Source: a virus
DNA: 28,821 nucleotides
IMG/VR virus record: IMGVR_UViG_3300033994_002576
Coordinates: 1-28,821 of that record
Direction: 5' to 3' (one strand)
Position 1 is the first letter of the stretch. Each line of letters begins with the position of its first letter. A model generated the notes under the pieces. It saw nothing but the letters and a program-made list of their open reading frames with translations, had not been told where the DNA came from and made no database searches. Below are positions 13,493 through 28,821 of the stretch, one piece after another. Position numbers and translations under genes: made by a program.

Positions 13493-16400
13493 ATGAGTTT
13501 TCAGTTTAATTCCGATAGAGAAAAAATTAGAGCTATAAATCCTTCTCTAATCGGAGAAAATGAATTAACTATTAGATCAGGAGTTGGCTCTAATGAAAAA
13601 GAGATCATTAGAGCTCAATTAGATTCTAATACTAGTTTACCTAGAGTAGGTATTAATAGGACTGGAAGTAGAGTAGAAAGAATAGAAGTAACTAGCAGAG
13701 GTTCTGGTTATACTTTACAGCCTACTGTCAATTTAAGTGCTCCAGATCAACCAAATGGAAGACAGGCACTTGCCTCTGCTGTAATTAATTTAGGTTTTGT
13801 TGTAGCTATCTTAGTTGATGATCAAGGAGATGGTTATACATCAGCTCCATCTGTAACTATCAGTGGCGGAAATGGTTTTGGCGCAACTGCTTTAGCATTT
13901 CTTGATACCGTAGATTTTGAACTTGATATTAACGGTGCAATCAGGACTTCAACTTCTATCATTTCTGATACTGCTAGAATTTTAAACCTAGATATTGATA
14001 ATTTTGTAACTCCAGATTTAGTTTTAAGAGCTCCAAATTTTAAAACATTTGTTAATAACACAGGCACACAGTGGGCTGCAAATGTAATCTTACAAAAAGA
14101 TTCCTATAGATATTGGGAATCTAATGTTTATCAAGCATTAAATACAGGGGAAACGGGTTCAATACCACCAACACATATTGATGGCATTGAATTAAATGGG
14201 GAAATTAGTTTTAAGCATATTGGTATTAGAGCTTCTGATCAAAATCAACCATTTTATGATCAATCTGGAGAAGCAGGTATATACCCAAGATCTATTACTC
14301 CACTTCTTGGCGATAAATCTGATAAGATTGCTACCACTGAATACGTTTTAAACCTCGCTACAAATGACGTTGGTGGTCGTGTTTACGTTTCGCAGCAGAT
14401 TGGTAATGACGACAATGATGGTCGTTCCGCAGTTGCTCCTGTAAGAACTATTAAGAAAGCTGCCCAGATTGCTTGGACAACTCCTGGCGTAAAGGAAACT
14501 ATTGTAGTTTCTGGTGGTGATTATGTAGAAGATAATCCAATTTCTTTACCCCCAGATGCTTCAGTTGTTGGTGATAACTTACGTCTTGTTATCATTCGTC
14601 CAGCAAATCCAAGAAAGCACATCTTCAAATTTGGTGATAAAAACTATGTAACTGGCGTTACTTATAGAGATCAAATTGATTCAAATGGCGATCCTGTAGC
14701 AACATGGGATTATGCCATGGTGTTTGACGATAAACAAAGAATTGTTTATGATGTTAGTGCAAATGGAGATTTCGAAACTGAATTTCCTGTAGGACATCAA
14801 ATTTTTGGACCAGAAAAATTCCGTGCTCTGTTCCAAACAAATACTGGTTTATCAAATTTAACTTCAGGACAAAGAGTTCGTGGTGTTAATACTGGTGCAA
14901 TTGCATTATTAAATAATGTTTCTTTCAACAAAATTACTGGACCTGATGCATATGTAGATGGAAGTGTAGATTTTTCTGTAATTAGTGGAACTTTTAATGC
15001 GGGAGAAACGTTCCAATTTGGCGGAACTGGAACCGTATCATTCCAGCCAAATACTGCATATACTTTAGGACAAACTGTTTGGACAGGAGATAATGTATAT
15101 ACAGTAACTGTTGCTGGTACTTCTGGCTCTGCTGCTCCAGCCCATACATCTGGAACAGCTACCAATGGCACCATAACTTTTGCTTTCTTAAGAACAGCAT
15201 ATGAATTTATTTCTACTGATATTAAATCAATTAGAGCAGAAGGAGAAGTTGTATTTGTAGATGAAGATATTACATCACCTCTTCCTATTGTAAGAATTGA
15301 TTTTTCAAAACAAGGTACTAATGAAGTAGCAACTGGAGGTTTTCAAGATCCTGGAGTTACAGAAGATTTAGGTGGTATTGTTTTCTATACTAACGCTCTT
15401 GTTGGTAGACAAAATACACACGATTTTAAAGAGGGACAAGAAATTTTAATTTCTGGTCTTCCAGAATCATCTCCAGACCTTTCTTTCTTGAATGGAAAGC
15501 AAAGAATTTATAAAGTTCTAGAAGATGCTGATGGTAGATCGAGAAGATTTGTTATTCCGAAAAAGACAACAGTAACTACAGTTGATGATTTTGATCCAGG
15601 ACAATTTGCTTCTGTAAGGTCTGCATCAAAGTCAGTAACTCTTTCTCTTCTTAACTCACCAAATAAATTCCCCATAGCAACTCCAGTAGCAAGACGCTAT
15701 CAGGATGCTTGTTTACAAATTAGAAATAACATTGACTTTATCGCTGATGAAGTTGTAAGAAGAATTAATGATGAATTTAAGAAAGAGTACTTCTCTGTAT
15801 ATAATATTTCTGGTGTTCAATTTAAAATCTTTTTAGGTCCATCAAGATTTATTCATACCTATGTAAGTGGAGGAACTGTAGAATTTAATAACACTACTTA
15901 TAATATTGCAGATTTTCAGTATGATAATTTTGTGACTGGAGAAGCAACAATAACAACAAATGTTCCAGTTGCATCTTTAACAGAAGATAGTATCGTAAAA
16001 CTTGCTGGTATTGTTGTTGAGTGTGATATCGACGGAGTAACAACTCAAAAAATTTATCCAAGTTTTAATATTCCAGTAAGTGATAATAAGTGTCGTAGAG
16101 ATGTAGGACATTTTCTAAACGCAGTAATTAGAGATCTTGAGTTTGGAAGTAATTATAATATTATTGATGCTGCTAAAAAATATATTTCTGCTGGTCAGAT
16201 CGATCTTGTAGATTACGAAATTACTCAAACAATTCGTGCTATTGAGTATGCTAGAGAACTAGCAATTTATGCTATGAGAAAGTGGAGAACTGGAAACGGT
16301 ACTCCTTCAGATCCTGTTTACATTCCACAGTATTCATCATTACCAAGATATTTTGATCCAACTGTAATTGATGATCTAGCATCTCCAGCGTGTGCTAACG

Positions 16401-19400
16401 TAGCATCTGCTATTAATACACTTTCATATCTATTTGTTGATGTACTTGCCAACAATGCTAATGGAACTTCGTTAGATGCTGCTTATTTAATTGCTAGAAA
16501 CAGAGATTTTATTGCTGATGAAGCATACGGAGCAACTAAAACACTTTACCCATCTCTAGGTCTTTCTAATATCAATGAAAGAAAATGCCGTAGAGATATC
16601 AATTTTATTATTAGTGGATTGCTGAGAGACCTTATTCTTGGCGGTAATGCTGGTATTGTTACTGCAGCAGAGTCATACTTTACTGGCACAGAACTAACTG
16701 GTATTCCAGAAGCACAAAGAGAAGAAACAATCTACGCTTTCAATCAGGTAAAAGATCTTTGTATCCTTGCCATGAGAAATTGGAAAACTGCTGGCGGTGC
16801 TGGTGCTACATACACCCCACTTCATACTCCAATTCCTCTATTTACTGATGCTAGTATTCTCATAGATACAGCTGGAACACCTTGGTGTGCTCAAATTGAA
16901 TCTGCTATCACTACTTCATTTGCTTTACTTGAAGATATTTTGGATGGCACAGTTTCTCCAGGAGGAACTGAAAAAACATTTGGCACATTATTTGATACTG
17001 CATCTATCATTTCATATCCAGATAGTATTATTTACGATGCTAATGACACTGTAATTACTCCTAGATCCGATTTTGATGATTTCCCAATTATCGAAGCTTC
17101 TCCATACACACAGAATGCCTCTGTAATTTCATTCCTAGGTGGAGGTGGTGCAGAAATTGATGGTTCTAAAGTTAAGCAACCTAACTGCCCATTCCCTGGT
17201 CTAGAACTTGACGGTTCCGCAACTTTCCCGAATCAAGGTAAGTCGATGGTTGCTTCAGCATTTACCATCGTATCATTTGGAGGAACTGGTTATTTAATTA
17301 AAAATGATGGTTATGTTCAGTTAGTTTCTGTATTCTGTATTTTCTGTGGTGATGGTGTTCTCGCAGAATCTGGTGGTTATGCTTCCATCACAAACTCAGC
17401 AACAAACTTTGGTATATTTGCTTTAAGAGCAATTGGATTTAATGATTTTGCTTACCCATTTGATATAGGCACAATTACAAACGTATCTTCAACCCCAACA
17501 GGAAGAACTATTTTTACAATTGATGGATTAGGAAGAGAACCACTTGAGCACTATATTGTTAAGATTGATGGCTATGAAAATGTAAGTGCAGAAATTGAAT
17601 ATTATATTGATAGCGTTGGTGCAGTTACAGTTGGTCCTCCATTCTCTGCTCAAGTAACTATTGAATCTGGTTCTGGTGGAGGAGCAGAATTTAAAGATAG
17701 TTCAACTGGTCAAGCAGTATCTACATCAGTATTAACTGGAAAAACTATTCGTTTACATAGACCATCTATTGTTAACTCTTCATCTCATACTTGGGAATTT
17801 GCTGGTTCTGGAACAAATTATAATGCACTACCAGAAAATGGTGGGGTTAAAATTGAAGCAAATGAGCAGGTTTCGGAAGATTATGGTCGTGTTTATGTTT
17901 CTGGTACTGATGAACTTGGCGACTTTAAAGTTGGTACATTCGCTAGAATTGAAAACAGAACTGGTAATATTACCTTTACTGGTACAGTTACAATTTCTGA
18001 AGTTGAATTCCTTAAGCTAAAAGGTGGTGACGTTGTTGTTACTGGTTTTGATGCTTCAAACACTTTAGGTGGCGCTAACTCAACTGACTCTAAACTACCA
18101 ACTCAAAAGGCAGTTAGAGATTATATCACAAACAATCTTGGTCCTTATATCAATAAGCCATACTCAACAAACGCTGTTCCTAGAGCACTAGTTGAACTAA
18201 CTGATTCTGGAAAAATTTCTATCGATCAGATTCCACCACTCAGACCATTCAGCGTATATACAGTACCAGATCAAACTGCTCGTTTAAACATCGAAGGTGC
18301 TCTTGCTGGCGATATTGCTATCCAACAAGATACATCAACTTCTTATATTCTTAACAATGATAATGGAAGTTTATTCGTTTCATTTAATGTAGATCCAACT
18401 CTTCAATTTACTACTGGTGATGTGTTTACTGGTAGTGTGAGCGAAGGTAAAATTCAGGCTACAGAATATAGACAGGGTGTTGTATATCAAATTAATATTA
18501 CTGATCCAGGTTCTGGTTATACAACTGCTCCTGTCATTACAATTACTGGGGGAAATCCACAAGCAGGTTCCATACAAGCAGCCGCAACTTGTACTATTGC
18601 AAATGGTCAAGTAGTTACTGTAACAATAGTTTTATTCAACGGTCTTATTGGTGGTAAAGGTTATACAACTCAACCAACAGTTACATTCTCAGCTCCATCT
18701 GGTTCTGGAACACAAGCAACTGGTATCGCTCTAATAGAAAGTAGATTATATGGAGATATTGTAAATAATATCAAAATTGCGGAAACTGACACTATTAATT
18801 CTAGTGATATACCAACGGAAACAATTAATATTAATAGAGTTGTAAATACTTCTGCTTCTAATAATAATAATTGGGTATCACTTTCAACAAATCAAATTGC
18901 TGCTTCTGACATTACATCTGGTGTTATTGCTACATCAAGATTAGCAAATAATTCAGATGCTGCAAACTCATTTACATTCTTGAGAGGCGATCAAAGCTAT
19001 GTACCAGTTGTACAATCTGTTAAAGGTGCGGAAACTAGATATTTTGCTAAACTATTCTCCCAAGCAAGTAGTGGATCAAGTCAGTTAATATTTACAACAA
19101 ATTCAAATACCCTCGTTGGCCATAGAGTTGTAGATAATATTACTGGTATTCAATCAAATACTTCAATCAATGGTGTCGTAACATCTGGTGGATTAACAAC
19201 AGTATCTATCAACAATCCTCTAACATCTACTCTTGCTGCTGGCAGTATTATTGAATTCCAAAGAGGAGCTTCTCCATTAGTATTTGAATCTTCTTTCACT
19301 CAAGGAAGTTTTGTTGATAATATTGTAATTGCTAATAATGGCAATGGTTTTACAGATGGTCAATATTTTGATGTTCCATTGTCGGGTGGATCTGGCACTG

Positions 19401-22114
19401 GATTGAGAGCAAATCTTATTGTTTCTGGAGGTCAAGTTACTGAAGTTACAGTAACAAACTCTGGTCTAAATTATACTTCCGATTTTAATGTATCTTCAGC
19501 TCCAGCTCAGATTGGTGGAGGTTCTGGACTTGTTCTTGCTGCTAAAATTAGCACTGTAAACAGACAATATGCTAATACTGCTATCGATGTTCAACGAGTA
19601 ACTGACCTAACAATTTCTGCTGATGAATTTGGTACTATTGGTGTTGCTAGATTTAGAAAATCACAATTTGAAATTGGACAAGCTGGCAATGGATCTATTG
19701 TATTAAAAACTGGTGCTGATAGTGGACTTGATGCTGACTTACTTGATGGTGCTCAAGGTGCTTACTATCTAAATGCGTCAAACTTAAATGCTGGTACTAT
19801 TTCTGTTGATAGATTAGCTGGTACATACAATATTAGTATTTCTGGTCAATCAGGTAATACGTTAAGATTAATTACCTCCACAAATAACCCAACATCAAAC
19901 CCATCCCCAAGTGCTTTCTCTTCTGGTGTAATTGTAGATACTAGAAATAATGCAGCTGATGGATTAAATGATGGAGGAACTAGACATGTCACAATGACAG
20001 TGAGAAATGGAGGTTCTGGATTTGATGCTACTTTTGGTGGAGTAAGACAATTAGCATTTACCGATAATGATAATTTATGGTTAAGAGGTTCTGGATCTAC
20101 TTTAGATTCATTTGGATCTTGGGCAAAAATTTGGACATCTTTAAATGATGGACCAGGAACTGGTTTAGATGCTGATAGATTAGATAACAAACAAGGAACT
20201 TGGTATCAAAATGCTCTTAATATTAATTTTGGATCTTTAAGTGATAATAGATTACCAATTTTCCAAACAAATAAAGATTTTCAAAATCGTTTAAGAATAC
20301 TTTCCTTTACTGGACAGCCAAGATATAGAATTTATGTTTCCAATCAAGTTTTGTCTGGGACTCCATTTTTACCAGGACAAATTGTAAATCTTTATAATGC
20401 AAATTCTCAAGGTGTAGGTACAATTTCTATTACGGATGTACTAATTAATCAAGATAATGCAGATTCATTTAATAATTATACTATTATTACAGGTACTTTA
20501 ACTACAGGTAATTTTGTTGGGGCAGAAACAATTGGTACTGCAAGCAATAGAGTTCCATTCCAAGATTATGCTATTTCATCGCTTGATACTAATGCTGATG
20601 GATTACCTGATGGTACATTTGAAGCTGCCGCAATTGAAAGTGATGGAGGAACTGCTAATCTTCGTCTAGGTAGAAGAGATGGTCAAGCATCATCTCCTGG
20701 TATCTACTTCAGATCTTCTCAATTAGCTGCAGCATCATTTAACTCAGCTATTGTTGCTACTGGAGGTAATTCAACCAATAGCAGTGGTACTCTTGATGTT
20801 AAAGTAGTTGATGCAAATGGTCTTACTATTAATGGAAACACTATTTGGAACTCTGGTAATGTAACATTTAACAGTGCTAATATTGTTTCAACTGCAGTTA
20901 TCCGTGATGCTTCTGGCAACTTTGCTGCGGGGACAATCACAGCAAACCTAACTGGTGCTGCTTCACAGAACGTCCTCAAGGCTGGCGATACCATGACTGG
21001 TTCGCTCACCTTAACTGGTGCTGGTAGCAATCTAAGTGTTTCTGGTACTTCTGGATTCACTGGTAATGTTACAATGAGTGCCAACTTGAATGTCGATAGT
21101 GGCACATTATTTGTTGATTCTACAAATAATAGTGTTAATATTGGTACTGTTACAAATGCTTCTGGTGTTAAACTTCAAGTTTTTGGAGATGCTGCTACCG
21201 ATACTATTCTTCGTGTAACAGCAACTAATGGAACTTATGATCCAGTAATTCAATTGGCAGCTGATTCTGGATTTACAAATGAAGGTTTTGAATTACGATA
21301 TGATAATAATGTTGGTGATGTTTACTTTAAGCAAATTTGGACTGGGTTAACAACTACTCCAGCATATAGATTTAGCACTGGCAATAAGACAGATGCTTTA
21401 GTAATTACTGGAAATGGTAGAGTTGGTATTTTTGGAACTCCAAATGATTCTTATGAACTAGATGTAACTGGAGATCTTCGTGCTTCCACTAGCATGGTCA
21501 TTGGAAATGCTGCCTCTAATGGCGGAGCTCCATTATTATTCTTAGGTTCTTCTGGATTTAGAAACTTCAGAATTGGTAATCAATTAACCGCTAATGATAT
21601 TTTTGAAATTACTCCATCAACTGCAAATGGCGGCACAACTTGGGCATCTACTCCAGCAATTGCTATTTCTGGAGCAAGCAGTTTAGTTGGTATTGGCACC
21701 ACTACATTTACTAGTACAGCTACTGGTTCAACTGTAGTTTACAAGTTAAATGTTGAAGGTAATATTAATATCAATGGTCAAGTTTATCAAAATAACTTAC
21801 CATTTGTAACTTCGAGATGGACACAATCTTCTAACGGTTTAGATATTCATAGATTATCTAAGGTTGGTATTAATAAAGCTAACCCAGCCTACACATTGGA
21901 TATTGGTGGTGATCTTAATATGACTGGAAAAATGTATATTAATGGTTTTGCTCAATGGTTAGATTCTAATGGTATTATTAAAGTATCTTCTAGTACATTA
22001 AGCGAAAGTGTAACTATTCCAGCTGGAGTAAATGGTATGTCAACTGGTCCTATTACTATTACCCCAGGAAATACAGTTACTGTATCACAAGGTGCTGTTT
22101 GGAATATCTTATAA
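13493..22114 (+). CDS. Giant beta-helix tail fibre / virion structural protein (2873 aa)
   Basis: The largest gene here, typical of T4-like cyanophage fibres. In order: an attachment-like N-terminus (1-60); GxGYT repeats (about 70-135); a CBM5/12-like segment (193-245); a right-handed beta-helix start (about 294-470) with GRVYVSQQIGNDDNDGRS and PVRTIKKAAQIA; a second CBM-like segment (519-566); two Cys-containing helical units centred on KCRRD (residues 866 and 1031); a beta-helix continuation near 1240-1330 with NQGKSMVASAFTIVSFGGTG; a linker with SKLPTQKAVRDYITNNLG (about 1530-1550); more GxGY repeats (1670-1750, 1943-2022); fibre repeats with GLDADLLDG and GLDADRLDN (about 2080 and 2225); VGI/LDV-type repeats (2550-2820); and an end with SVTIPAGVNGMSTGPITI. 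No S74 intramolecular chaperone domain is seen at the C-terminus. The beta-helix and CBM-like parts suggest polysaccharide contact. Whether it cleaves anything is unclear; no catalytic residues could be assigned. Confidence 0.8.
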   Translation: MSFQFNSDREKIRAINPSLIGENELTIRSGVGSNEKEIIRAQLDSNTSLPRVGINRTGSRVERIEVTSRGSGYTLQPTVNLSAPDQPNGRQALASAVINLGFVVAILVDDQGDGYTSAPSVTISGGNGFGATALAFLDTVDFELDINGAIRTSTSIISDTARILNLDIDNFVTPDLVLRAPNFKTFVNNTGTQWAANVILQKDSYRYWESNVYQALNTGETGSIPPTHIDGIELNGEISFKHIGIRASDQNQPFYDQSGEAGIYPRSITPLLGDKSDKIATTEYVLNLATNDVGGRVYVSQQIGNDDNDGRSAVAPVRTIKKAAQIAWTTPGVKETIVVSGGDYVEDNPISLPPDASVVGDNLRLVIIRPANPRKHIFKFGDKNYVTGVTYRDQIDSNGDPVATWDYAMVFDDKQRIVYDVSANGDFETEFPVGHQIFGPEKFRALFQTNTGLSNLTSGQRVRGVNTGAIALLNNVSFNKITGPDAYVDGSVDFSVISGTFNAGETFQFGGTGTVSFQPNTAYTLGQTVWTGDNVYTVTVAGTSGSAAPAHTSGTATNGTITFAFLRTAYEFISTDIKSIRAEGEVVFVDEDITSPLPIVRIDFSKQGTNEVATGGFQDPGVTEDLGGIVFYTNALVGRQNTHDFKEGQEILISGLPESSPDLSFLNGKQRIYKVLEDADGRSRRFVIPKKTTVTTVDDFDPGQFASVRSASKSVTLSLLNSPNKFPIATPVARRYQDACLQIRNNIDFIADEVVRRINDEFKKEYFSVYNISGVQFKIFLGPSRFIHTYVSGGTVEFNNTTYNIADFQYDNFVTGEATITTNVPVASLTEDSIVKLAGIVVECDIDGVTTQKIYPSFNIPVSDNKCRRDVGHFLNAVIRDLEFGSNYNIIDAAKKYISAGQIDLVDYEITQTIRAIEYARELAIYAMRKWRTGNGTPSDPVYIPQYSSLPRYFDPTVIDDLASPACANVASAINTLSYLFVDVLANNANGTSLDAAYLIARNRDFIADEAYGATKTLYPSLGLSNINERKCRRDINFIISGLLRDLILGGNAGIVTAAESYFTGTELTGIPEAQREETIYAFNQVKDLCILAMRNWKTAGGAGATYTPLHTPIPLFTDASILIDTAGTPWCAQIESAITTSFALLEDILDGTVSPGGTEKTFGTLFDTASIISYPDSIIYDANDTVITPRSDFDDFPIIEASPYTQNASVISFLGGGGAEIDGSKVKQPNCPFPGLELDGSATFPNQGKSMVASAFTIVSFGGTGYLIKNDGYVQLVSVFCIFCGDGVLAESGGYASITNSATNFGIFALRAIGFNDFAYPFDIGTITNVSSTPTGRTIFTIDGLGREPLEHYIVKIDGYENVSAEIEYYIDSVGAVTVGPPFSAQVTIESGSGGGAEFKDSSTGQAVSTSVLTGKTIRLHRPSIVNSSSHTWEFAGSGTNYNALPENGGVKIEANEQVSEDYGRVYVSGTDELGDFKVGTFARIENRTGNITFTGTVTISEVEFLKLKGGDVVVTGFDASNTLGGANSTDSKLPTQKAVRDYITNNLGPYINKPYSTNAVPRALVELTDSGKISIDQIPPLRPFSVYTVPDQTARLNIEGALAGDIAIQQDTSTSYILNNDNGSLFVSFNVDPTLQFTTGDVFTGSVSEGKIQATEYRQGVVYQINITDPGSGYTTAPVITITGGNPQAGSIQAAATCTIANGQVVTVTIVLFNGLIGGKGYTTQPTVTFSAPSGSGTQATGIALIESRLYGDIVNNIKIAETDTINSSDIPTETININRVVNTSASNNNNWVSLSTNQIAASDITSGVIATSRLANNSDAANSFTFLRGDQSYVPVVQSVKGAETRYFAKLFSQASSGSSQLIFTTNSNTLVGHRVVDNITGIQSNTSINGVVTSGGLTTVSINNPLTSTLAAGSIIEFQRGASPLVFESSFTQGSFVDNIVIANNGNGFTDGQYFDVPLSGGSGTGLRANLIVSGGQVTEVTVTNSGLNYTSDFNVSSAPAQIGGGSGLVLAAKISTVNRQYANTAIDVQRVTDLTISADEFGTIGVARFRKSQFEIGQAGNGSIVLKTGADSGLDADLLDGAQGAYYLNASNLNAGTISVDRLAGTYNISISGQSGNTLRLITSTNNPTSNPSPSAFSSGVIVDTRNNAADGLNDGGTRHVTMTVRNGGSGFDATFGGVRQLAFTDNDNLWLRGSGSTLDSFGSWAKIWTSLNDGPGTGLDADRLDNKQGTWYQNALNINFGSLSDNRLPIFQTNKDFQNRLRILSFTGQPRYRIYVSNQVLSGTPFLPGQIVNLYNANSQGVGTISITDVLINQDNADSFNNYTIITGTLTTGNFVGAETIGTASNRVPFQDYAISSLDTNADGLPDGTFEAAAIESDGGTANLRLGRRDGQASSPGIYFRSSQLAAASFNSAIVATGGNSTNSSGTLDVKVVDANGLTINGNTIWNSGNVTFNSANIVSTAVIRDASGNFAAGTITANLTGAASQNVLKAGDTMTGSLTLTGAGSNLSVSGTSGFTGNVTMSANLNVDSGTLFVDSTNNSVNIGTVTNASGVKLQVFGDAATDTILRVTATNGTYDPVIQLAADSGFTNEGFELRYDNNVGDVYFKQIWTGLTTTPAYRFSTGNKTDALVITGNGRVGIFGTPNDSYELDVTGDLRASTSMVIGNAASNGGAPLLFLGSSGFRNFRIGNQLTANDIFEITPSTANGGTTWASTPAIAISGASSLVGIGTTTFTSTATGSTVVYKLNVEGNININGQVYQNNLPFVTSRWTQSSNGLDIHRLSKVGINKANPAYTLDIGGDLNMTGKMYINGFAQWLDSNGIIKVSSSTLSESVTIPAGVNGMSTGPITITPGNTVTVSQGAVWNIL

Positions 22115-22117
22115 AGT

Positions 22118-22125
22118 TATAAATA
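22118..22125 (+). promoter_or_regulatory. Consensus T4 late promoter box (TATAAATA)
   Basis: An exact TATAAATA in the 35-base gap between the giant fibre stop (22114) and the ATG at 22150, ending 24 bases before the ATG. It matches the canonical T4 late promoter and would start transcription of the first adhesin cassette. A second NATAAATA at 22142-22149 abuts the ATG and is too close to be useful. Confidence 0.7.
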
Positions 22126-22149
22126 TATGAAAGAGAATCATAATAAATA

Positions 22150-23280
22150 ATGTCTACGTTAAATGTAGGAACAGCAAATTTAACACATTCTTTAAATTTG
22201 CCAGTATTAACAACAGCACAAAGAAATAGTATATCTCCGCAGGCGGGAAATATTATATTTAATTCTGATTTATTGGTTGTACAGTACTACGATGGAACAG
22301 CTTGGACTGATCTCGGCCAAAAAGGTGGCTCATTATATGATTTCACAACTTTTACTTTCAAACCAATAGTTGCAGCTGGTAGTGGAACTGGACCAAATTT
22401 GTCACAAATACAATCTGCTTATTCTTCTGTATCTTGGTCAACTAATTATATTACAATGGGACCAACACAAGGATATCAGCGATGGACAGTTCCTGTTGAC
22501 GGAATATATGAAATAGAGGCTGGTGGTGCTGCTGGAGGCAAAGATCCAAATACTTCTTTTCAAAGAGCATACGGAGCTTTAGTTAAGGGAAGATTTCAAT
22601 TAGCAAAAGAACAAGTATTGGAAATGGTAATTGGATCCAGAGGAAATGAATATAGCTCTCCTCATTATAATGAAGCAGGTGGCGGAGGAGGAACTTTTGT
22701 AAAAAATCATACAGTAAATACACTATTGATAGTTGCTGGTGGTGCTGGTGGTGCTCCAAGTAGTGCTTACGGAGGGGCTTGTACAAGAAATTTATCTATT
22801 GGACAAGGACAATCTACTCAACAAGGAGGAATAGCAGTTTGTGCTGCAACTCCAGCAACTCCTTCACTTGGTTATGGAGGAAATACTGCTGGATCTTATC
22901 AAGGTGGTGCTGGAGGAGGATATTTAGGAAATGGTGCCAATGGAGGTACTCATTGTTGTACATCCACGGGAGGAGGTGGATACAATTCGGGAGCTGTAGG
23001 TGGCCTAGGAAATTGTTGTTATTCTAGCCAAACTCAAAATGGAGGTGGTTTTGGTGGTGGTGGTGGTGGTCAATTAAGTGGTCCTGGCGGTGGTGGTGGA
23101 TATACAGGAGGAAGTTGTTCTGGCCAATGGTCTTCTTTTAGTGAATATGGAGGTGGAGGAGGTTCTTATAATATTGGTTCCAATCAATCATCAACAGCAG
23201 GAGGAAATACTGGATCTAATTCTACTTCTAACGGGGGGTATGATGGAGCTGGTTATTGTAAAATTACACTTGTAGGTTAA
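22150..23280 (+). CDS. Glycine-rich adhesin-like tail fibre tip protein 1 (376 aa, Cys-rich)
   Basis: First of three tandem paralogues. Residues 1-58 are a lead-in module (LTTAQRNSISPQAGNIIFNS, then YYDGTAWTDLG), related to modules in the large fibres and likely an attachment segment. Residues 65-125 include FTTFTF and end in the family motif QRWTVPVDGIYEIEAGGAAG. From about 150 on it is glycine-rich (GGGGGTFVKNH, LLIVAGGAGGA, a six-glycine run at 302-307), resembling the glycine-rich domain of ALK/LTK-type receptors and, in spirit, the polyglycine type II helix tips of T-even gp38 adhesins. Unlike its paralogues it has two CC pairs (HCCTS, NCCYSS) plus further Cys. A receptor-binding tip role is inferred. 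It has its own late box at 22118-22125 and is followed after four bases by a small companion gene. A structural enzyme is unlikely; no active site is seen. Confidence 0.75.
   Translation: MSTLNVGTANLTHSLNLPVLTTAQRNSISPQAGNIIFNSDLLVVQYYDGTAWTDLGQKGGSLYDFTTFTFKPIVAAGSGTGPNLSQIQSAYSSVSWSTNYITMGPTQGYQRWTVPVDGIYEIEAGGAAGGKDPNTSFQRAYGALVKGRFQLAKEQVLEMVIGSRGNEYSSPHYNEAGGGGGTFVKNHTVNTLLIVAGGAGGAPSSAYGGACTRNLSIGQGQSTQQGGIAVCAATPATPSLGYGGNTAGSYQGGAGGGYLGNGANGGTHCCTSTGGGGYNSGAVGGLGNCCYSSQTQNGGGFGGGGGGQLSGPGGGGGYTGGSCSGQWSSFSEYGGGGGSYNIGSNQSSTAGGNTGSNSTSNGGYDGAGYCKITLVG
23053..23070 (+). repeat. In-frame GGT x6 tract
   Basis: Six consecutive GGT codons encode Gly302-Gly307 of the first adhesin. Being triplet-based, slippage would change loop length without shifting the frame. 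Confidence 0.9.
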
Positions 23281-23284
23281 AAAG

Positions 23285-23800
23285 ATGCTTAGATTTATAA
23301 AATTAGTAAATAATTTACCAACACATTATACTATCGAACAATTATTTGAAGAATATCCAGATGCTGTAATTTATGAAGGTTATGGTGGATTACCATCAGA
23401 AAGATTGTTAAAAGAATATGATATATATCCATTAATTACCACGATAAAACCTGAAGGAGATATAGTAGAAGAAGGAGAACCAATTTTCTCGAATGGAGAA
23501 TGGATTCAGACATGGACAATAAGAGATTTTACCAAATCGGAATTAGAAGAACAAAAAAGACAATTTGAACTAAAGCAAATAAATTCAGAAAAAGAAAGTT
23601 TTTTTAGACCTTTTTTGGAAAATAATAATATTTTTGTTGATAAAGAAATGCAAAATTATAGATATAATATTTGTAAATCGTGCGATAAATTTATAAATTT
23701 AACTAAGCAATGTAAAGAATGTGGATGTTTCATGACATTAAAAACTAGATTAAAACTCACTTCATGTCCAATAGGAAAATGGGACAGTGACCTCAAATAA
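23285..23800 (+). CDS. Adhesin-companion protein with C-terminal zinc ribbon (171 aa)
   Basis: Follows adhesin 1 by four bases; AGG at 23274-23276, eight bases before the ATG, is a plausible ribosome-binding site inside the adhesin's end. Residues 1-85 carry HYTIEQLFEEYPDA, LLKEYDIYPLI and EGEPIFSNGEWIQTW, matching the companion gene at 24839. The region looks like tail-fibre assembly or chaperone-type small proteins encoded next to their fibre, but no firm family name can be given. Residues 86-115 are charged and helical. The C-terminal 45 residues form a Cys cluster (Cys130, 133, 143, 146, 148, 161; CKSC, CKECGC, SCPIGKW) expected to bind zinc and recalled from many T4-like marine phage proteins. 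Inference: it helps folding, trimerisation or attachment of the adhesin. Adjacency supports that pairing; direct evidence is lacking. Confidence 0.7.
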   Translation: MLRFIKLVNNLPTHYTIEQLFEEYPDAVIYEGYGGLPSERLLKEYDIYPLITTIKPEGDIVEEGEPIFSNGEWIQTWTIRDFTKSELEEQKRQFELKQINSEKESFFRPFLENNNIFVDKEMQNYRYNICKSCDKFINLTKQCKECGCFMTLKTRLKLTSCPIGKWDSDLK

Positions 23801-23803
23801 ATA
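23796..23803 (+). promoter_or_regulatory. Late promoter box (AATAAATA) overlapping a stop codon
   Basis: AATAAATA spans the TAA stop of the companion gene (23798-23800) and ends 22 bases before the ATG at 23826. Position and spacing match the late boxes of the other cassettes. AGG near 23809-23811 is a weak ribosome-binding candidate downstream. Confidence 0.55.
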
Positions 23804-23825
23804 CAAATAGGTAAAAATTAAAATA

Positions 23826-24842
23826 ATGTCTAGTTTATCTACACAAGTTGCGAATATTCAATCATTACTTAATGCTCCATCAATTACAATTGCAGAAAGA
23901 GATTCATTAACTTTTACCATTGGTTCTGTAATATACAATAGCGATGAATTAGTTCTGGAAATTTATGATGGAGAAAAATGGTTATTAGTTTTAGGTACTA
24001 GGCAAGCTTCAGGGGGATCTGCTGCAAATACTCCTTTATATGATTTTACTGGCGCCAGATTTACAAATGGAGGTCAAACTGGTAGAACAGGTCCATCACT
24101 TTCTCAAGCAATTAGCGGGATAACTGGAAATGATTCCTGGAAAAATAATACACAATATTTTAATGTTTCAGCAGGAATTCAATTATGGACTGTTCCTCAA
24201 ACAGGTAATTATCGAATTACTGTAGCTGGAGCAAAAGGAGGAAATAGCAATAACTGGGGAAGATCTGGTGGGTTTGGAGCCACTATGTCTGGGACATTTA
24301 GTTTAAACAAAGGAGATGTTTTAAAACTTTTAGTTGGACAAATGGGGACTAATGATACTTATGATGGTGGTGGTGGAGGAGGTAGTTTTGTAACAAAACA
24401 AGATAATAGTTCATTAATTATTGCTGCAGGAGGTGGCGGAGGATCTGCATGTGGATTTAGTGGATCTGGATCTAGTGCTGGTAGAACAGATCAAAGTGGT
24501 AGTAGTACAAGTTGGGGAAGTGGAGGAAGTAATGGAAATGGTGGAAATGGATCTACTGCTGGAGGCGGAGGTGGATTAACTGGCAATGGTACTGGATCTT
24601 GGGGAGGTCAATCATTTGTAAATGGTGGTATTGGTGGTCCAAACGCTTCTGGTGGATTTGGTGGCGGTGGCGGTGGCGGTGGCACCAATGGAGCTGGAGG
24701 TGGTGGAGGTTATTCTGGAGGAGGATATGCTCCTTGGTGTTATGATGGTGGTGGTGGTGGATCTTTCAATAATGGCACCAGTCAAAATAACACTACAGGA
24801 AATAATAGCTCACATGGTTACATCGACATACAAAAACAATGA
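23826..24842 (+). CDS. Glycine-rich adhesin-like tail fibre tip protein 2 (338 aa)
   Basis: Second paralogue of the array. The lead-in (residues 1-58) has SITIAERDSLTFTIGSVIYN and EIYDGEKWLLVLG. Residues 74-150 contain LYDFTGARFTNGGQTGRTGP, the Trp motif GIQLWTVPQTGNYRITVAGA and a KGGN turn; the remainder is glycine-rich with GGGGGGSFVTKQ, LIIAAGGGGGSACG and an eight-glycine run at 279-286 encoded by a perfect GGTGGC repeat. It has only two Cys (SACGF, PWCYD), unlike adhesin 1. Its stop overlaps the start of the next small gene (ATGA), implying coupled translation with that companion. Receptor-binding tip function is inferred from the glycine-rich domain, the fibre-like lead-in and position between fibre and neck genes. 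Whether it sits on the same virion as its paralogues or serves a different fibre cannot be told. Confidence 0.75.
   Translation: MSSLSTQVANIQSLLNAPSITIAERDSLTFTIGSVIYNSDELVLEIYDGEKWLLVLGTRQASGGSAANTPLYDFTGARFTNGGQTGRTGPSLSQAISGITGNDSWKNNTQYFNVSAGIQLWTVPQTGNYRITVAGAKGGNSNNWGRSGGFGATMSGTFSLNKGDVLKLLVGQMGTNDTYDGGGGGGSFVTKQDNSSLIIAAGGGGGSACGFSGSGSSAGRTDQSGSSTSWGSGGSNGNGGNGSTAGGGGGLTGNGTGSWGGQSFVNGGIGGPNASGGFGGGGGGGGTNGAGGGGGYSGGGYAPWCYDGGGGGSFNNGTSQNNTTGNNSSHGYIDIQKQ
24660..24683 (+). repeat. Perfect hexanucleotide repeat GGTGGC x4, in frame
   Basis: Four exact tandem copies of GGTGGC encode Gly279-Gly286 of adhesin 2. The repeat is a likely slippage or recombination site that would lengthen or shorten a glycine run by two residues per unit while keeping the frame. 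Confidence 0.9.
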
Positions 24843-25099
24843 GATACTATAAAGTAGAAGATGGTATTCCAAAAGAATACTCAATAGAACAGCTATTAAA
24901 AGATCATATTGGCGCAAATATTTGCGATCCTTTTATTGGAGAAATATCAGAAAAATTATTATTAAATTATAATGTTTACAAATTAATTGAATGTCCTCCT
25001 TTAGATATAGATAATTGCATAGAAGGAGAACCAATATTTGAAAATAATCAGGTTAATCAAACTTGGATTGATTTATCCGAAAAAATAAATAATATATAA
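24839..25099 (+). CDS. Short adhesin-companion protein lacking the zinc ribbon (86 aa)
   Basis: Starts inside the stop codon of adhesin 2 (ATGA overlap, four bases), so it is probably translated by re-initiation after that adhesin. It aligns with the N-terminal half of the companion at 23285: shared elements are EYSIEQLLKDH against HYTIEQLFEEY, LLLNYNVYKLI against LLKEYDIYPLI, and EGEPIFENNQVNQTW against EGEPIFSNGEWIQTW. The protein ends soon after this region, so the Cys cluster of the longer paralogue is absent. The frame ends cleanly at TAA. This suggests either that the N-terminal part alone performs the adhesin-related task or that the C-terminus was lost. The domain cannot be named with confidence; a tail-fibre assembly or chaperone role is inferred from the pairing. 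Confidence 0.65.
   Translation: MRYYKVEDGIPKEYSIEQLLKDHIGANICDPFIGEISEKLLLNYNVYKLIECPPLDIDNCIEGEPIFENNQVNQTWIDLSEKINNI
25084..25091 (+). promoter_or_regulatory. Late promoter box (AATAAATA) inside the end of the companion gene
   Basis: AATAAATA lies in the last codons of the 86-aa gene and ends 31 bases before the ATG of adhesin 3 at 25123. Its spacing matches the other late boxes of the array, so it probably drives the third cassette. Confidence 0.55.
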
Positions 25100-25112
25100 A
25101 AGTTTTAATAGT

Positions 25113-25116
25113 AGGA
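25113..25116 (+). promoter_or_regulatory. Ribosome-binding site for adhesin 3
   Basis: AGGA six bases before the ATG at 25123, within a 23-base gap, is a well-placed Shine-Dalgarno sequence and supports this start. Confidence 0.65.
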
Positions 25117-25122
25117 TTTAAT

Positions 25123-26181
25123 ATGTCAACACTAAATACTAAATCATTAATAGTAACGCAAAAGCTAAACATGCCTGCGTATACTGATGCTCAAAAAGAT
25201 GCGTTGACAACAGCAATTCCTGGATCTATAATTTATAATTCAGAAGGACAATCATTTCAATATTATGATGGAGCTAACTGGCTTGGTGGTTCGGGTGGAG
25301 CATTATTTGTTTTCACAACAGCTACATTTACTTCAGGAGGATTAGAAGGTAGAAATGGACCTTCTTTAACACAAGCTAGAAGTGGTCTTTCTGGTCCAGA
25401 AGCAAATACATGGAAAAATGATACTACATTTTTCAATGTTTCTGGTGGTATTCAATTATGGACTGTGCCAAAAGATGGCGTATATAGAATACAATGTGCT
25501 GGAGCTCAAGGAGGCAATAATTCATCTTTTACAGGTGGTCCTGGTTATGAATTAAGATGTGATTTTACTTTTACCCAAGGTTTAGTATTAAAAATTTTAG
25601 TGGGACAAAGAGGAAATAGCACCACTGGATCTAATTGTGATGTGGGTAGTGGCGGAGGAACTTTCGTGGCTACTAACACAAACACACCTATAATTGTTGC
25701 TGGCGGAGGTAGCGGAGCTTCGTATAATACAAATGGTAAGCCTGGACAAAGTGGAGAAAATGGCGGTCAAGGTGACAACAGTGGAGGTCAAGGAGGAACT
25801 GGGGGAAATGGAGGATTTGCTGCATCTTCTGGTTCTAGTGGTGGAGGAGGATTTTTTGGTAATGGAGCAAACCAAACTTGGTCTCCATCATCTGGAAATG
25901 GTTTTGGACTTGCTTTTACTAATGGAGGAACTGGGGGAGCTACAATGAGTGCAGCATATGCTGAAGGTGGTTTTGGTGGAGGTTCTGGAGGACATGGAAA
26001 TTGTTACATTGGATCGGGTGGAGCAGGTGGATATAGCGGTGGAGGTGGTGGAGGCTACAATGGAAATCTTGCTGGCGGAGGAGGTGGATCGTTTACTAGC
26101 TCATCTTTTAGTTCCACTAATAGAGTAAATATAGGAACTAGAAATGGGGGTGGGTATGCAACTATTACTTTTATATCATAA
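25123..26181 (+). CDS. Glycine-rich adhesin-like tail fibre tip protein 3 (352 aa)
   Basis: Third paralogue. The lead-in has LNMPAYTDAQKDALTTAIPG and SIIYNSEGQSFQYYDGANWL, closest in pattern to adhesin 1. Residues 65-135 contain LFVFTTATFTSGGLEGRNGP, the motif GIQLWTVPKDGVYRIQCAGA and QGGN; this part is closest to adhesin 2, so the protein looks like a mosaic of its two neighbours. The glycine-rich C-terminus carries GGGTFVATN, IIVAGGGSGAS and many GG steps, but no long pure triplet repeat. Its Cys are few (IQCAGA, LRCDF, SNCDVG, GNCYIG). No small companion of the 23285/24839 family follows it; the next gene is an unrelated coiled coil. Receptor-tip function is inferred as for its paralogues. 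Its late box lies at 25084-25091 and its ribosome-binding site at 25113-25116. Confidence 0.75.
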   Translation: MSTLNTKSLIVTQKLNMPAYTDAQKDALTTAIPGSIIYNSEGQSFQYYDGANWLGGSGGALFVFTTATFTSGGLEGRNGPSLTQARSGLSGPEANTWKNDTTFFNVSGGIQLWTVPKDGVYRIQCAGAQGGNNSSFTGGPGYELRCDFTFTQGLVLKILVGQRGNSTTGSNCDVGSGGGTFVATNTNTPIIVAGGGSGASYNTNGKPGQSGENGGQGDNSGGQGGTGGNGGFAASSGSSGGGGFFGNGANQTWSPSSGNGFGLAFTNGGTGGATMSAAYAEGGFGGGSGGHGNCYIGSGGAGGYSGGGGGGYNGNLAGGGGGSFTSSSFSSTNRVNIGTRNGGGYATITFIS

Positions 26182-26184
26182 ATA
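26177..26184 (+). promoter_or_regulatory. Late promoter box (CATAAATA) overlapping a stop codon
   Basis: CATAAATA contains the TAA stop of adhesin 3 (26179-26181) and ends 30 bases before the ATG at 26215. It follows the NATAAATA pattern and the spacing of the other boxes and would serve the 62-aa gene. Confidence 0.55.
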
Positions 26185-26187
26185 AAT

Positions 26188-26215
26188 TGGTAATATCATT
26201 ATAAATTGATTACCA
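26188..26215 (+). repeat. Inverted repeat ending on a start codon
   Basis: TGGTAAT (26188-26194) and ATTACCA (26209-26215) are perfect inverted repeats with a 14-base loop. The last base is the A of the ATG at 26215. There is no T-run, so this is not a terminator; it could affect ribosome access. It may be chance in AT-rich sequence. Confidence 0.4.
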
Positions 26216-26403
26216 TGGATACAGAAACACTCAAAAAGAATTTCGAAGACCAACTTGCTACCACAGAAAAGCAAATTTTTGATTTAGAAGCAAGTTTAGA
26301 AAAAGCAAAAGAATACAAACTAAAACTTCAAGGTGGTCTAGAGACACTACTTCTCCTTAACCCACCAGAAGAAGAAACTGCTCCAGAAGAAGCAGCAGAA
26401 TAA
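26215..26403 (+). CDS. Small coiled-coil protein with acidic tail (62 aa)
   Basis: The ATG at 26215 is chosen over an in-frame TTG at 26206 because ATG is the start used by every other gene here; no clear Shine-Dalgarno favours either. Residues 5-45 form a heptad-like helix (LATTEKQIFDLEASLEKAKE, then LKLQGGLETLLLL); the end is proline-glutamate rich (NPPEEETAPEEAAE). Small proteins of this shape occur just upstream of gene 13 in T4-like cyanophages as far as I recall, where T4 instead has wac. It is short, has no enzyme motif and is probably a structural or assembly accessory. It has its own late box (26177-26184), and a terminator-like hairpin follows seven bases after the stop. Function unknown. 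Confidence 0.6.
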   Translation: MDTETLKKNFEDQLATTEKQIFDLEASLEKAKEYKLKLQGGLETLLLLNPPEEETAPEEAAE

Positions 26404-26409
26404 TCCACA

Positions 26410-26444
26410 AATCCCTATCTGATAAATACAGGTAGGGATTTTTT
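26410..26444 (+). terminator. Rho-independent terminator-like hairpin with a late box in its loop
   Basis: The left arm 26410-26421 pairs with the right arm 26429-26440 over twelve base pairs, all Watson-Crick except one G-U, with a seven-base loop, and the sequence continues as a T-run to 26444. It lies seven bases after the 26403 stop and ends the adhesin region. The loop (26422-26428) reads ATAAATA, so the late promoter of the next gene sits in the terminator. Confidence 0.85.
26421..26428 (+). promoter_or_regulatory. Late promoter box (GATAAATA) in the terminator loop
   Basis: GATAAATA occupies the top stem base and the whole loop of the terminator hairpin and ends 28 bases before the gp13 ATG at 26457. 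It would start the neck-gene transcript just where the upstream transcript ends. Confidence 0.65.
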
Positions 26445-26456
26445 GTATCTAATTAA

Positions 26457-27287
26457 ATGGCACAGCCATCTACTAGACAGGGACTAATTGACTACTGTAA
26501 AAGACAGTTAGGTGCTCCTGTGTTACAGATTAACATTGATGATGCACAAGTTGGTGATGTTATCGATGATGCTATTCAGTATTATCAGGAATGGCATTAT
26601 GATGGCGTGGAGCGTATGTATCTCAAGCATCAAGTTACTGCTGATGATGTAGAGAGATTTTTATCATCCAATGAAGAGAATAGCACTACTGATCCATATG
26701 GTGCTACATGGGAAAATAGAAGAAACTTTATTGAAGTTCCAGATCATGTGATTGGAATTTCTAAAGTATTTGGGGTTTCATCTAACTGGATTCGTAATGA
26801 TTTATTTGGTTTAAGCAACCAGTATTTCTTGATGGATGTATTTTCATTCTCATCTGGATTTGCTTTTGGTAACTTTGATATGACCAACTACTATATGATC
26901 CGTCAGTATTTTGAAACTCTTGATATGGTTGTTAATACTGGTGCATTAGTAGAGTATAGATTTAATAAGAGACAAGATAGATTGTTCATTGATATTGGTA
27001 CAAGTAGATTAACAGAAGGAAATTATATTTTAATCGAATGCCATAGAGCATTAAATCCAGAAGAATTTACTCAAGTATATAATGATAGTTTTGTCAAGAA
27101 GTATGCTACTGCTCTTATGAAGAGACAGTGGGGACAGAACTTAATTAAGTACAATGCTGTTCAACTTCCTGGTGGTATCACACTAAACGGAAGACAGATT
27201 TATGAAGATGCGTTGGCAGAGATTGCACAACTAGAAGCAGATATGCCAACCAAGTATACACTCCCACCTATGGATATGATCGGATAA
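26457..27287 (+). CDS. gp13: Neck protein gp13
   Basis: Recognised as the T4-like neck protein gp13 by its N-terminal run RQGLIDYCKRQLGAPVLQIN, then DDAIQYYQEWHYDGVERMYL, which are strongly conserved in cyanophage gp13. At 276 residues it is slightly shorter than T4 gp13 (309). In T4, gp13 and gp14 form the neck that closes the filled head and docks the tail. Other visible features are a mid-protein aromatic stretch (YFLMDVFSFSSGFAFGNFDM) and a C-terminal KKYATALMKRQWGQNLIKYN helix. The start lies 28 bases after the late box in the terminator loop; gp14 begins one base after its stop. Base composition and codon use are plainer than in the fibre genes, as expected for a conserved core gene. 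Confidence is high from both sequence and gene order. Confidence 0.93.
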   Translation: MAQPSTRQGLIDYCKRQLGAPVLQINIDDAQVGDVIDDAIQYYQEWHYDGVERMYLKHQVTADDVERFLSSNEENSTTDPYGATWENRRNFIEVPDHVIGISKVFGVSSNWIRNDLFGLSNQYFLMDVFSFSSGFAFGNFDMTNYYMIRQYFETLDMVVNTGALVEYRFNKRQDRLFIDIGTSRLTEGNYILIECHRALNPEEFTQVYNDSFVKKYATALMKRQWGQNLIKYNAVQLPGGITLNGRQIYEDALAEIAQLEADMPTKYTLPPMDMIG

Positions 27288-27288
27288 G

Positions 27289-28173
27289 ATGCCTACAAGT
27301 CCTTATTTTCCACCCTACTATGAAGGATATTCTGGCGAGCAAAATCTCGTGCAGGATCTTGTTGACGAGCAGATTAAACTGTTCGGTTCGGATATCTATT
27401 ATCTACCAAGAACTATCCTAAAAGAAAATACATTAGATGATGTAATCTATTCTAAGTTTGAAAGTCAGTTTCAAGTTGAGATGCTTTTATCTAATGTAGA
27501 AGGTTTTGGTGAGCAATCAGAATTTATTTCTAAGTTTGGTATTCGTATTACTGATGAAGTTAAGTTTATTGTATCAGCAAGACGATGGGCAGAATCAGAA
27601 GAACAGTATAGTCCAAACTTAACTGTTCCTGGTAGACCAAATGAGGGAGACCTTTTATACTTCCCATTGACTACAGACATTTATGAGATCAAATTTGTAG
27701 AAAGAGAAAGTCCTTTCTATCAGTTTGGCAAGATTCAGTTTATTATTATGACGGCTGAGATCTATGAAATTGGTAATGATAAGATTGATACTGGTATTGA
27801 AGCGATTGATGAAATTGAACAATTGTTTAGTTCTGCTATTGCATTGAATATGAAGGTTGGAGGAACTGGCAACTTTACTGTTGGGGAGGTTGTTACAGGT
27901 AGTATATCAAATGAAACTGCAGAAGTCAAGTCATGGGATCCTATTACCAGGATCATTCAGGTCATTAATCGCACGGGAACATTTGTCGAAGATGAAAGTT
28001 TAACTGGTGATGACAGTGGTGCTGTATGGGTAGTTAGCACTTTCTCTACAATTGAAAATACCAATTCTGAGTATGATCAAAATAAATATATTGAAGACAC
28101 CGCTAATCCTCTTATTGATTGGGGTGAAGTTAACCCGTTTGGGGAATTTGGAAATATGGGAGATAGCTTCTAA
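27289..28173 (+). CDS. gp14: Neck protein gp14 with a C-terminal inserted module
   Basis: Recognised as T4-like gp14 by position directly after gp13 and by conserved segments near the N-terminus (QNLVQDLVDEQIKLFGSDIY, YLPRTILKE, DDVIYSKFESQFQVEMLLSN) and FIVSARRW. It forms the neck with gp13. The protein has 294 residues against 256 in T4 gp14. The extra length fits a beta module near residues 188-250 with FTVGEVVTGSISNETAEVKS and FVEDESLTGDDSGAVW. This GExxxGxxS pattern recurs several times in the giant protein at 65-8119, so it appears to be a mobile structural module rather than part of the neck core. The end, with NPLIDWGEVNPFGEFGNMGD, looks intact. Its stop overlaps the gp15 start by one base (TAATG). 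Confidence 0.92.
   Translation: MPTSPYFPPYYEGYSGEQNLVQDLVDEQIKLFGSDIYYLPRTILKENTLDDVIYSKFESQFQVEMLLSNVEGFGEQSEFISKFGIRITDEVKFIVSARRWAESEEQYSPNLTVPGRPNEGDLLYFPLTTDIYEIKFVERESPFYQFGKIQFIIMTAEIYEIGNDKIDTGIEAIDEIEQLFSSAIALNMKVGGTGNFTVGEVVTGSISNETAEVKSWDPITRIIQVINRTGTFVEDESLTGDDSGAVWVVSTFSTIENTNSEYDQNKYIEDTANPLIDWGEVNPFGEFGNMGDSF
28081..28088 (+). promoter_or_regulatory. Possible internal late box (AATAAATA)
   Basis: AATAAATA lies within gp14, 84 bases before the gp15 start. The spacing is longer than for the other boxes and the surroundings are coding, so it may be chance in AT-rich sequence. Confidence 0.25.
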
Positions 28174-28821
28174 TGTTAGGACCGCACTATTATAACGAGG
28201 CAATACGTAAAACTGTTATTGCATTCGGAACACTATTCAACAATATTGAAATTCAAAAGGTAGATCCTCAAACCAAAGCTGTATTGGAAGTTGAGAAGGT
28301 TCCTCTTGGGTATGGTCCTAAGAATAAGTTCTTAACTCGTTTAGAGCAGAACCCAGAAGTGGGAAGAAAAGTTGCCATTCAGTTGCCTCGTTTATATTTT
28401 GAGATGACTGGAATCAATTATGATTCGGCAAGAAAGACAAGTCCTATTCAAAAGTATAGAACTGTTGTTAGTGATAATGGTAATGAAGTAAGGGTTCAGT
28501 ATGTTCCAGTCCCATACAATATGGACTTTGAACTTGGTATTATTGCTAAGTCACAGGATGATGGTCTGCAGATTATCGAACAGATTCTACCATACTTCCA
28601 ACCAAATTTCAATATGACTCTTAACTTTATTCCAGAGATGGATGAGAAGAGAGATGTTTCTGTTATCTTAAACAGTGTTGATTATGAAGATGACTGGGAA
28701 GATGATTTTATGCAACGTCGCAGTATCATCTGGACTTTAGGATTTACTGCTAAGTCATACATCTACGGTCCTTTCAGTCAAGCAGGTATTATTCGCAAAG
28801 CTACTATTTACGAATCTGTCG
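28173..28821 (+). CDS. gp15: Tail completion / sheath stabiliser protein gp15 (5' part, cut by window end)
   Basis: Starts at ATG in TAATG, sharing one base with the gp14 stop, and stays open to the end of the window: 216 complete codons against 272 residues in T4 gp15. Translation begins MLGPHYYNEAIRKTVIAFGT and contains IQLPRLYFEMTGINYDSARK and PVPYNMDFELGIIAKSQDDG, hallmarks of gp15 in T4-like phages. In T4, gp15 forms a hexameric ring that caps the tail tube and sheath and contacts the neck. The position after gp13 and gp14 is the T4 order, and genes 16 and 17 (terminase) would be expected next. The 3' end is missing only because of the window edge. Confidence 0.92.
   Translation, partial: MLGPHYYNEAIRKTVIAFGTLFNNIEIQKVDPQTKAVLEVEKVPLGYGPKNKFLTRLEQNPEVGRKVAIQLPRLYFEMTGINYDSARKTSPIQKYRTVVSDNGNEVRVQYVPVPYNMDFELGIIAKSQDDGLQIIEQILPYFQPNFNMTLNFIPEMDEKRDVSVILNSVDYEDDWEDDFMQRRSIIWTLGFTAKSYIYGPFSQAGIIRKATIYESV

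Follow-up and report, generated by a model that had tools for sequence, protein, structure and literature searches.

A probable receptor-binding tip locus with ALK-type tip proteins and putative companion chaperones at a hypervariable slot of a T4-like cyanomyovirus

In cyanophage Pam3, the fibre protein gp24, which is composed of TNF-like and glycine-rich domains and is present in the virion, is folded by the phage-encoded chaperone gp25, and the likeness of this TNF-like/glycine-rich fibre to ALK (7LIR) has already been published (PMC9608196). Gp25 itself was not detected in Pam3 virions; in phages Mu and Ur-lambda, Tfa chaperones are retained in the virion (PMC9608196). The locus described here, found in the 28,821-nucleotide (nt) IMG/VR record IMGVR_UViG_3300033994_002576 (below, the window), is a variant of this known arrangement of an ALK-like phage fibre with a chaperone, with three tip proteins, two small companions and an exchange slot. 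The record is a 28.8-kb fragment of a T4-like cyanomyovirus, the hosts of which, judging from the relatives of the phage, are probably marine cyanobacteria. We consider it likely that the locus serves receptor binding, with anchored ALK-type tips, tip-specific chaperone companions, and units of both exchanged as cassettes at a fixed slot. A search of a library of papers found none on tandem adhesin–chaperone arrays.

Five genes, all on the plus strand, lie between the gene of the giant tail-fibre protein (2873 residues, 13493..22114, plus strand; phrog_5342 tail fiber protein, 4554 bits) and the small conserved gene phrog_580 (26215..26403, plus strand), which forms the downstream border of the variable slot and is followed by gp13, gp14, and gp15, starting at 26457, 27289, and 28173. 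They encode tip protein 1 (376 residues, 22150..23280), companion 1 (171 residues, 23285..23800), tip protein 2 (338 residues, 23826..24842), companion 2 (86 residues, 24839..25099), and tip protein 3 (352 residues, 25123..26181), the last without a companion. The positions of these five reading frames had been given in an earlier note on this DNA and are exact, as are the 4-nt gap between tip 1 and companion 1 and the ATGA overlap at 24839–24842, by which companion 2 is translationally coupled to tip 2. The paralogy that it had proposed for the tips is borne out by alignments of tip 3 with tip 2 (E 1e-49) and with tip 1 (E 4e-35); the first ~58 residues form a common lead-in, 43–48% identical among the three, and the Trp-Thr-Val-Pro motif is invariant (W112–P115 of tip 1). 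The two companions indeed belong to one family, matching over 76 residues of the N-domain with 39% identity (E 1e-15). The tips differ in cysteine content (8, 2, and 4 in tips 1, 2, and 3) and, when glycines common to them are disregarded, also strongly in their glycine-rich portion, with an identity outside Gly-Gly positions of 0.12–0.21 in the insert vs 0.32–0.45 in the TNF-like part.

Following its lead-in (residues 1–58), tip 1 carries a TNF-like/glycine-rich domain of the ALK type, matching PF12810, the glycine-rich domain of ALK/LTK, with 39.7 bits (E 7.4e-10; Pfam gathering cut-off 24.5), and its best sequence match in the PDB is human ALK (7n00, E 3.3e-11, phmmer). Tip 2 scores 12 bits against PF12810, below the cut-off, and tip 3 gave no match in the Pfam profile search, its ALK-type domain being assigned from phrog_22713 (E 1.2e-29) and from alignments. 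A joint profile of the three tips of the window and those of cyanophages S-CREM1 and S-SZBM1 recovers ALK with E 3e-24. An AlphaFold2 model of tip 2, computed as a single chain from seven sequences, is of modest overall confidence, with a predicted local distance difference test score (pLDDT) of 57.9, rising to 65–84 in the core of the lead-in (residues 21–50) and in most of the TNF-like strands. In this model a TNF-like jelly roll, formed by strands within 112–200 and 318–337, encloses the glycine-rich insert, and the lead-in appears as a 58-residue mixed domain with one six-residue helix. The best structural matches are the TG domains of ALK/LTK (Z 18.5–20.2, 216–239 residues aligned), led by ALK 9g5i (VIA Z 20.2, 236 residues aligned, root-mean-square deviation 3.3, 34% identity in the structural alignment), and are followed by fibre gp24 of Pam3 (7ypx, Z 10.2, 131 residues aligned) and then by the Bxb1 tail tip (Z 9.3). 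In sequence profile and predicted fold, the tip domain thus belongs to the ALK/LTK receptor type of TNF-like/glycine-rich domains (PF12810). Unlike ALK/LTK, the tips have no transmembrane, kinase, or EGF-like part, and they would act in adhesion, as part of the virion. Domains of the ALK type are also frequent in bacteria, chiefly in Bacteroidota, and are thus no peculiarity of phages. In the main text of the S-CREM1 publication, the tip gp65 is not mentioned among the proteins identified by mass spectrometry.

The likeness to Pam3 gp24/gp25 (7YPX, PMC9608196) comprises a TNF-like and glycine-rich distal end for receptor recognition and a dedicated small chaperone, both roles being putative in the window, likewise in a cyanophage. 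In Pam3, however, a single fibre protein docks to the baseplate by its long N-terminal helical bundle, whereas the window has three tips with short lead-ins beside a separate 2873-residue fibre. With the gp37–gp38 pair of T-even phages (T2, S16, PP01) the locus would share a glycine-rich receptor-recognition module with variable loops, located beside the long fibre gene, and the logic of host-range exchange. It differs from them in that gp38 is a small protein built of a beta-helix and a PGII sandwich, whereas the glycine-rich domain of the window is TNF-like and of the ALK type, resides in the large protein, and is present in three copies; T2-type gp38 was not returned by PDB sequence searches with the tips and was not among the fold matches listed.

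Companion 1 consists of a chaperone-like N-domain (residues 1 to ~85), a helix, and a second module that the earlier reading had not mentioned, a Cys-rich, zinc-ribbon-like C-domain of the type DUF6171 (PF19668, E 4.5e-9); companion 2 is an N-domain only. The N-domain of companion 1 falls into phrog_4998 (E 3.8e-12), and companion 2 is placed there through its match to companion 1. Homologues of this domain directly follow a fibre-like gene in all seven phages of unrelated genera that were considered (Noxifer, FENT2, SURPRISE13, Psa21, Proteus phage 10, PhiEaH1, and PVPSE1, two of them Seunavirus-like), the upstream genes being annotated as tail fiber, collagen-like, virion structural, or possible tail protein. 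The window companions thus resemble the phrog_4998/DUF4376 proteins of Noxifer, Seunavirus, PhiEaH1, and Psa21 in the N-domain and in position, and differ from them in lacking the DUF4376-type C-terminal domain, present behind the N-domain in 3/3 homologues tested for Pfam domains (in one below the Pfam cut-off). The model of companion 1, in which the N-domain reaches a pLDDT of 73–90, finds in BFVD a DUF4376 protein of Noxifer (E 2.2e-7) and proteins that bear the name phage tail assembly chaperone (best E 2.2e-6); the chaperone names are automatic annotations of predicted viral proteins. Neither companion matches the Pfam profiles of Tfa (PF02413) or Phage_tail_APC (PF16778), companion 2 has no phage tblastn match even at E 1, and an NCBIfam search gave no useful match. 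By homology, position, and the fold of the predicted models, the companions are likely to be folding or assembly chaperones specific for their tips.

Two cyanophages have a DUF6171-like Cys-rich module in a tip companion, at 23285–23800 of the window and in L007:13425–13718, where the score lies under the Pfam cut-off; such modules also match small hypothetical proteins elsewhere in many phages.

It is rather improbable that the companions are instead permanent subunits of the virion, each capping or co-forming its tip in the manner of gp38 on gp37 of T2-type phages. The order of a large gene followed by a small one, as in g37–g38, and the retention of the Mu and Ur-lambda Tfa proteins in the virion would agree with such a role, whereas it is the large protein that carries the glycine-rich, receptor-type domain, opposite to the arrangement with T2-type gp38, the fold matches of the companion are predicted chaperones, and Pam3 gp25 is absent from the proteins detected in virions.

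That the companions are matched to their tips, as the earlier note had proposed, is supported by their distribution among dereplicated tips with an adjacent companion. When two tips at different loci are of the same type, their companions belong to one family in 206/208 cases, vs 449/2128 when the types differ, figures which, with related sequences counted separately, are evidence of linkage as units and not a probability. Shuffling yielded on average 58 and at most 132 matching pairs in place of the 206. With the largest companion family left out, the counts are 28/30 for same-type vs 0/494 for different-type pairs. The association persists at tip identities below 45% (39/40), although most of these pairs come from the largest companion family, without which the count is 3/4. 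Individual examples are the companions of S-H9-2 and S-H9-1 (33% identity) and those of S-RIM32 and Syn1 (49%). This association, together with the coupled translation and the fibre-adjacent homologues in the seven unrelated phages, makes it very improbable that the companions merely hitch-hike with the tips as unrelated regulators of small size or as moron genes, a possibility raised by the best phage matches of the DUF6171 module of companion 1, which elsewhere are small hypothetical proteins not near tips.

The arrangement of the upstream signals agrees with such units. The late-promoter consensus of cyanophages, NATAAATA (PMC2984593), has ATAAATA as its core, and plus-strand sites of this kind are located 31 nt upstream of tip 1 (22119..22125, with a second at 22143–22149), 29 nt upstream of tip 2 (23797..23803), and 38 nt upstream of tip 3 (25085..25091). 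Such sites are also found upstream of phrog_580 and gp13, and none upstream of either companion. The motif is not over-represented across the whole window (10 vs 20 expected), so only its placement is informative; for 7 of its 9 plus-strand sites, a gene starts at most 70 nt downstream (binomial P 3e-8 vs A/T-only 7-mers). Since the sites precede each tip and no companion, each tip looks like its own transcription unit, with the companion, where there is one, coupled to it.

Comparison with two near relatives, in which genes are named by resemblance to annotated relatives, defines the borders of the slot. In the first (L098), gp13 is 99% identical and the DNA aligns, at 92% nucleotide identity, from 26302 onward only; upstream of this match lie a halogenase-like gene and oxygenase-like genes. 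In the second (L099), gp13 is 93% identical and the alignment covers 26195–28819 (87% nucleotide identity), then resumes only at 21739–21897, inside the fibre gene (78.6%). Its homology to the window thus ends at 26195, 14 nt past tip 3, and a cassette at 21898..26195, assigned to neither strand, has no nucleotide match, while the flanks align on both sides. In its place this relative carries three other glycine-rich tips, a different companion, and halogenase- and oxygenase-like genes. The earlier note had suggested a host-range cassette, an idea that identical sets of three genes in all relatives would have spoken against; both relatives hold other genes in the slot, beside gp13–gp15 kept at 87–92% nucleotide identity, and the exchange part of the suggestion stands. 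These comparisons support the locus as a hypervariable slot at which tip–companion units are exchanged as cassettes.

The same slot is found in other cyanomyoviruses (S-H9-2, S-H9-1, S-RSM4, Sf-CH1b, S-PM2), with related lead-ins in most of them, one to three tips, and often small partners, whereas their C-terminal modules differ from those of the window. Similar lead-ins are followed by other glycine-rich modules in S-RSM4, Sf-CH1b, and Sf-CH11 and by LamG in S-H9-2, which repeats the order tip–companion–tip–companion–tip with unrelated modules. Stand-alone lead-in-like proteins of 58–63 residues are encoded between fibre and tip in three further loci (L137:7166–7342, L156:7728–7907, and L004:11800–11991) and may represent a separate adaptor.

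Upstream of the slot, the last 55 residues of the giant fibre (21950–22114 of the window) show a mean pairwise identity of 0.47 across 15 loci, vs 0.21–0.37 in the five segments before them, and are the best-conserved stretch of the fibre end among fibres whose downstream tips are unrelated. This would fit a common, possibly universal, dock for the tips at the fibre C terminus. The proteins might, alternatively, be virion adhesins other than tips of the long fibre, such as short fibres, whiskers, or baseplate-attached proteins, each with its own attachment site. The cassette adjoins the neck genes gp13–15 as well as the fibre gene, and what might tie the lead-in to the fibre end is indirect at best, which would suit this alternative; the conserved fibre C terminus beside variable tips and the position of the slot right after the fibre gene oppose it, and we regard it as possible, though on balance doubtful.

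In related cyanophage slots, glycine-rich tips are often followed directly by a tryptophan halogenase and by 2OG-Fe(II) oxygenases in runs (L098:1–4779, L099, L092, L094, L096, L002, and L003); these enzymes might modify the tips rather than serve metabolism. Minus-strand oxygenase-like genes are located between an ALK-type tip and phrog_580 in L137:8511–9706 and L156:9077–9697, in a late region that is otherwise on the plus strand.

The earlier note had further held that the array grows by duplication, and for these three tips that part is not supported. Tip 2 shares 64% and 62% identity with the tips of S-CREM1 (S-CREM1_65) and S-SZBM1 (S-SZBM1_50), which have no lead-in, and about 50% with its neighbour tip 3. 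In approximately unbiased (AU) tests, which on glycine-rich domains depend on the alignment, a single clade of the three tip domains is rejected for the whole domain (p 7e-5) and for the TNF-like part alone (p 0.027), and tip 2 clusters with the S-CREM1 and S-SZBM1 tips with 100/99 support. Because a clade of the three is rejected and tip 2 is nearer to tips of other phages, the array looks as if assembled by module exchange, with tip modules placed onto similar lead-ins. Local duplication of one tip–companion unit with later divergence of the tips, which we judge unlikely, would account for the lead-in and fold common to all three tips and for companions of one family; it has a precedent in S-SZBM1, where neighbours at this kind of locus are 80% identical after a recent tandem duplication. 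The tests reject neither a pairing of tips 2 and 3 (p 0.316) nor monophyly of the lead-ins (p 0.945), the tree of which has few columns and is too short for a duplication test. The domain of tip 1 clusters with domains of a proteobacterial metagenome bin (L194, L200; 93/99 support) and not with phage tips, and a bacterial or prophage source is possible for it.

Several observations weigh against a receptor-binding locus of tips and dedicated chaperones. The array is known from one sequence: when IMG/VR was scanned with companion 2 and with tip 3 as single proteins, the only record found was L001, which does not differ from the window over 10,099 nt and hence is the same sequence; the tip-domain alignment, scanned likewise, brought up a single relative (L011), and the phage is known from metagenome contigs only. 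The glycine-rich insert (217–304) of the tip 2 model is of low confidence (pLDDT below 50). A Foldseek search of the PDB with the companion model gave no significant match and returned neither Mu Tfa nor gp25, and the companions do not have the helical trimerisation domain that Pam3 gp25 carries at its C terminus and that is also found with DUF4376. The association statistics treat related sequences as if they were independent. Finally, a companion is not obligatory, since some ALK-type tips have none (tip 3; those of L137, L156, and L132; those of S-CREM1 and S-SZBM1).

In the tip locus that we favour, the lead-in would be a short common anchor of each tip to the virion, and the C-terminal TNF-like jelly roll with its glycine-rich insert would be the host-recognition end, with variable loops at the end of the insert contacting the host surface, by analogy with Pam3 and with gp38 of S16 and PP01. 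Each companion, made from the same transcript as its tip, would fold or assemble that tip, with the companions reduced to a client-binding N-domain (86 residues) or to the N-domain with the DUF6171 module (171 residues). Tip–companion units would be swapped between phages, within borders set by the conserved fibre end upstream and by phrog_580–gp13 downstream, and different tips may serve different receptors. An extension of this scheme, to which we assign a low probability, is that one virion carries a mixed set of the three ALK-type tips on a common fibre dock, each companion licensing its own tip only; tip composition, and hence host choice, would then be set by companion supply and not by genetic switching.

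T4-like cyanophages are among the most abundant viruses of the ocean, and they have no recognisable homologues of the T4 distal fibre genes g34, g35, and g37 (PMC2984593), so their receptor-binding proteins are largely unassigned. A defined slot from the fibre end to phrog_580–gp13, in which tips with similar lead-ins are interchangeable and have partners specific to them, offers concrete candidates for host recognition and makes the question of the attachment proteins of cyanomyoviruses directly testable.

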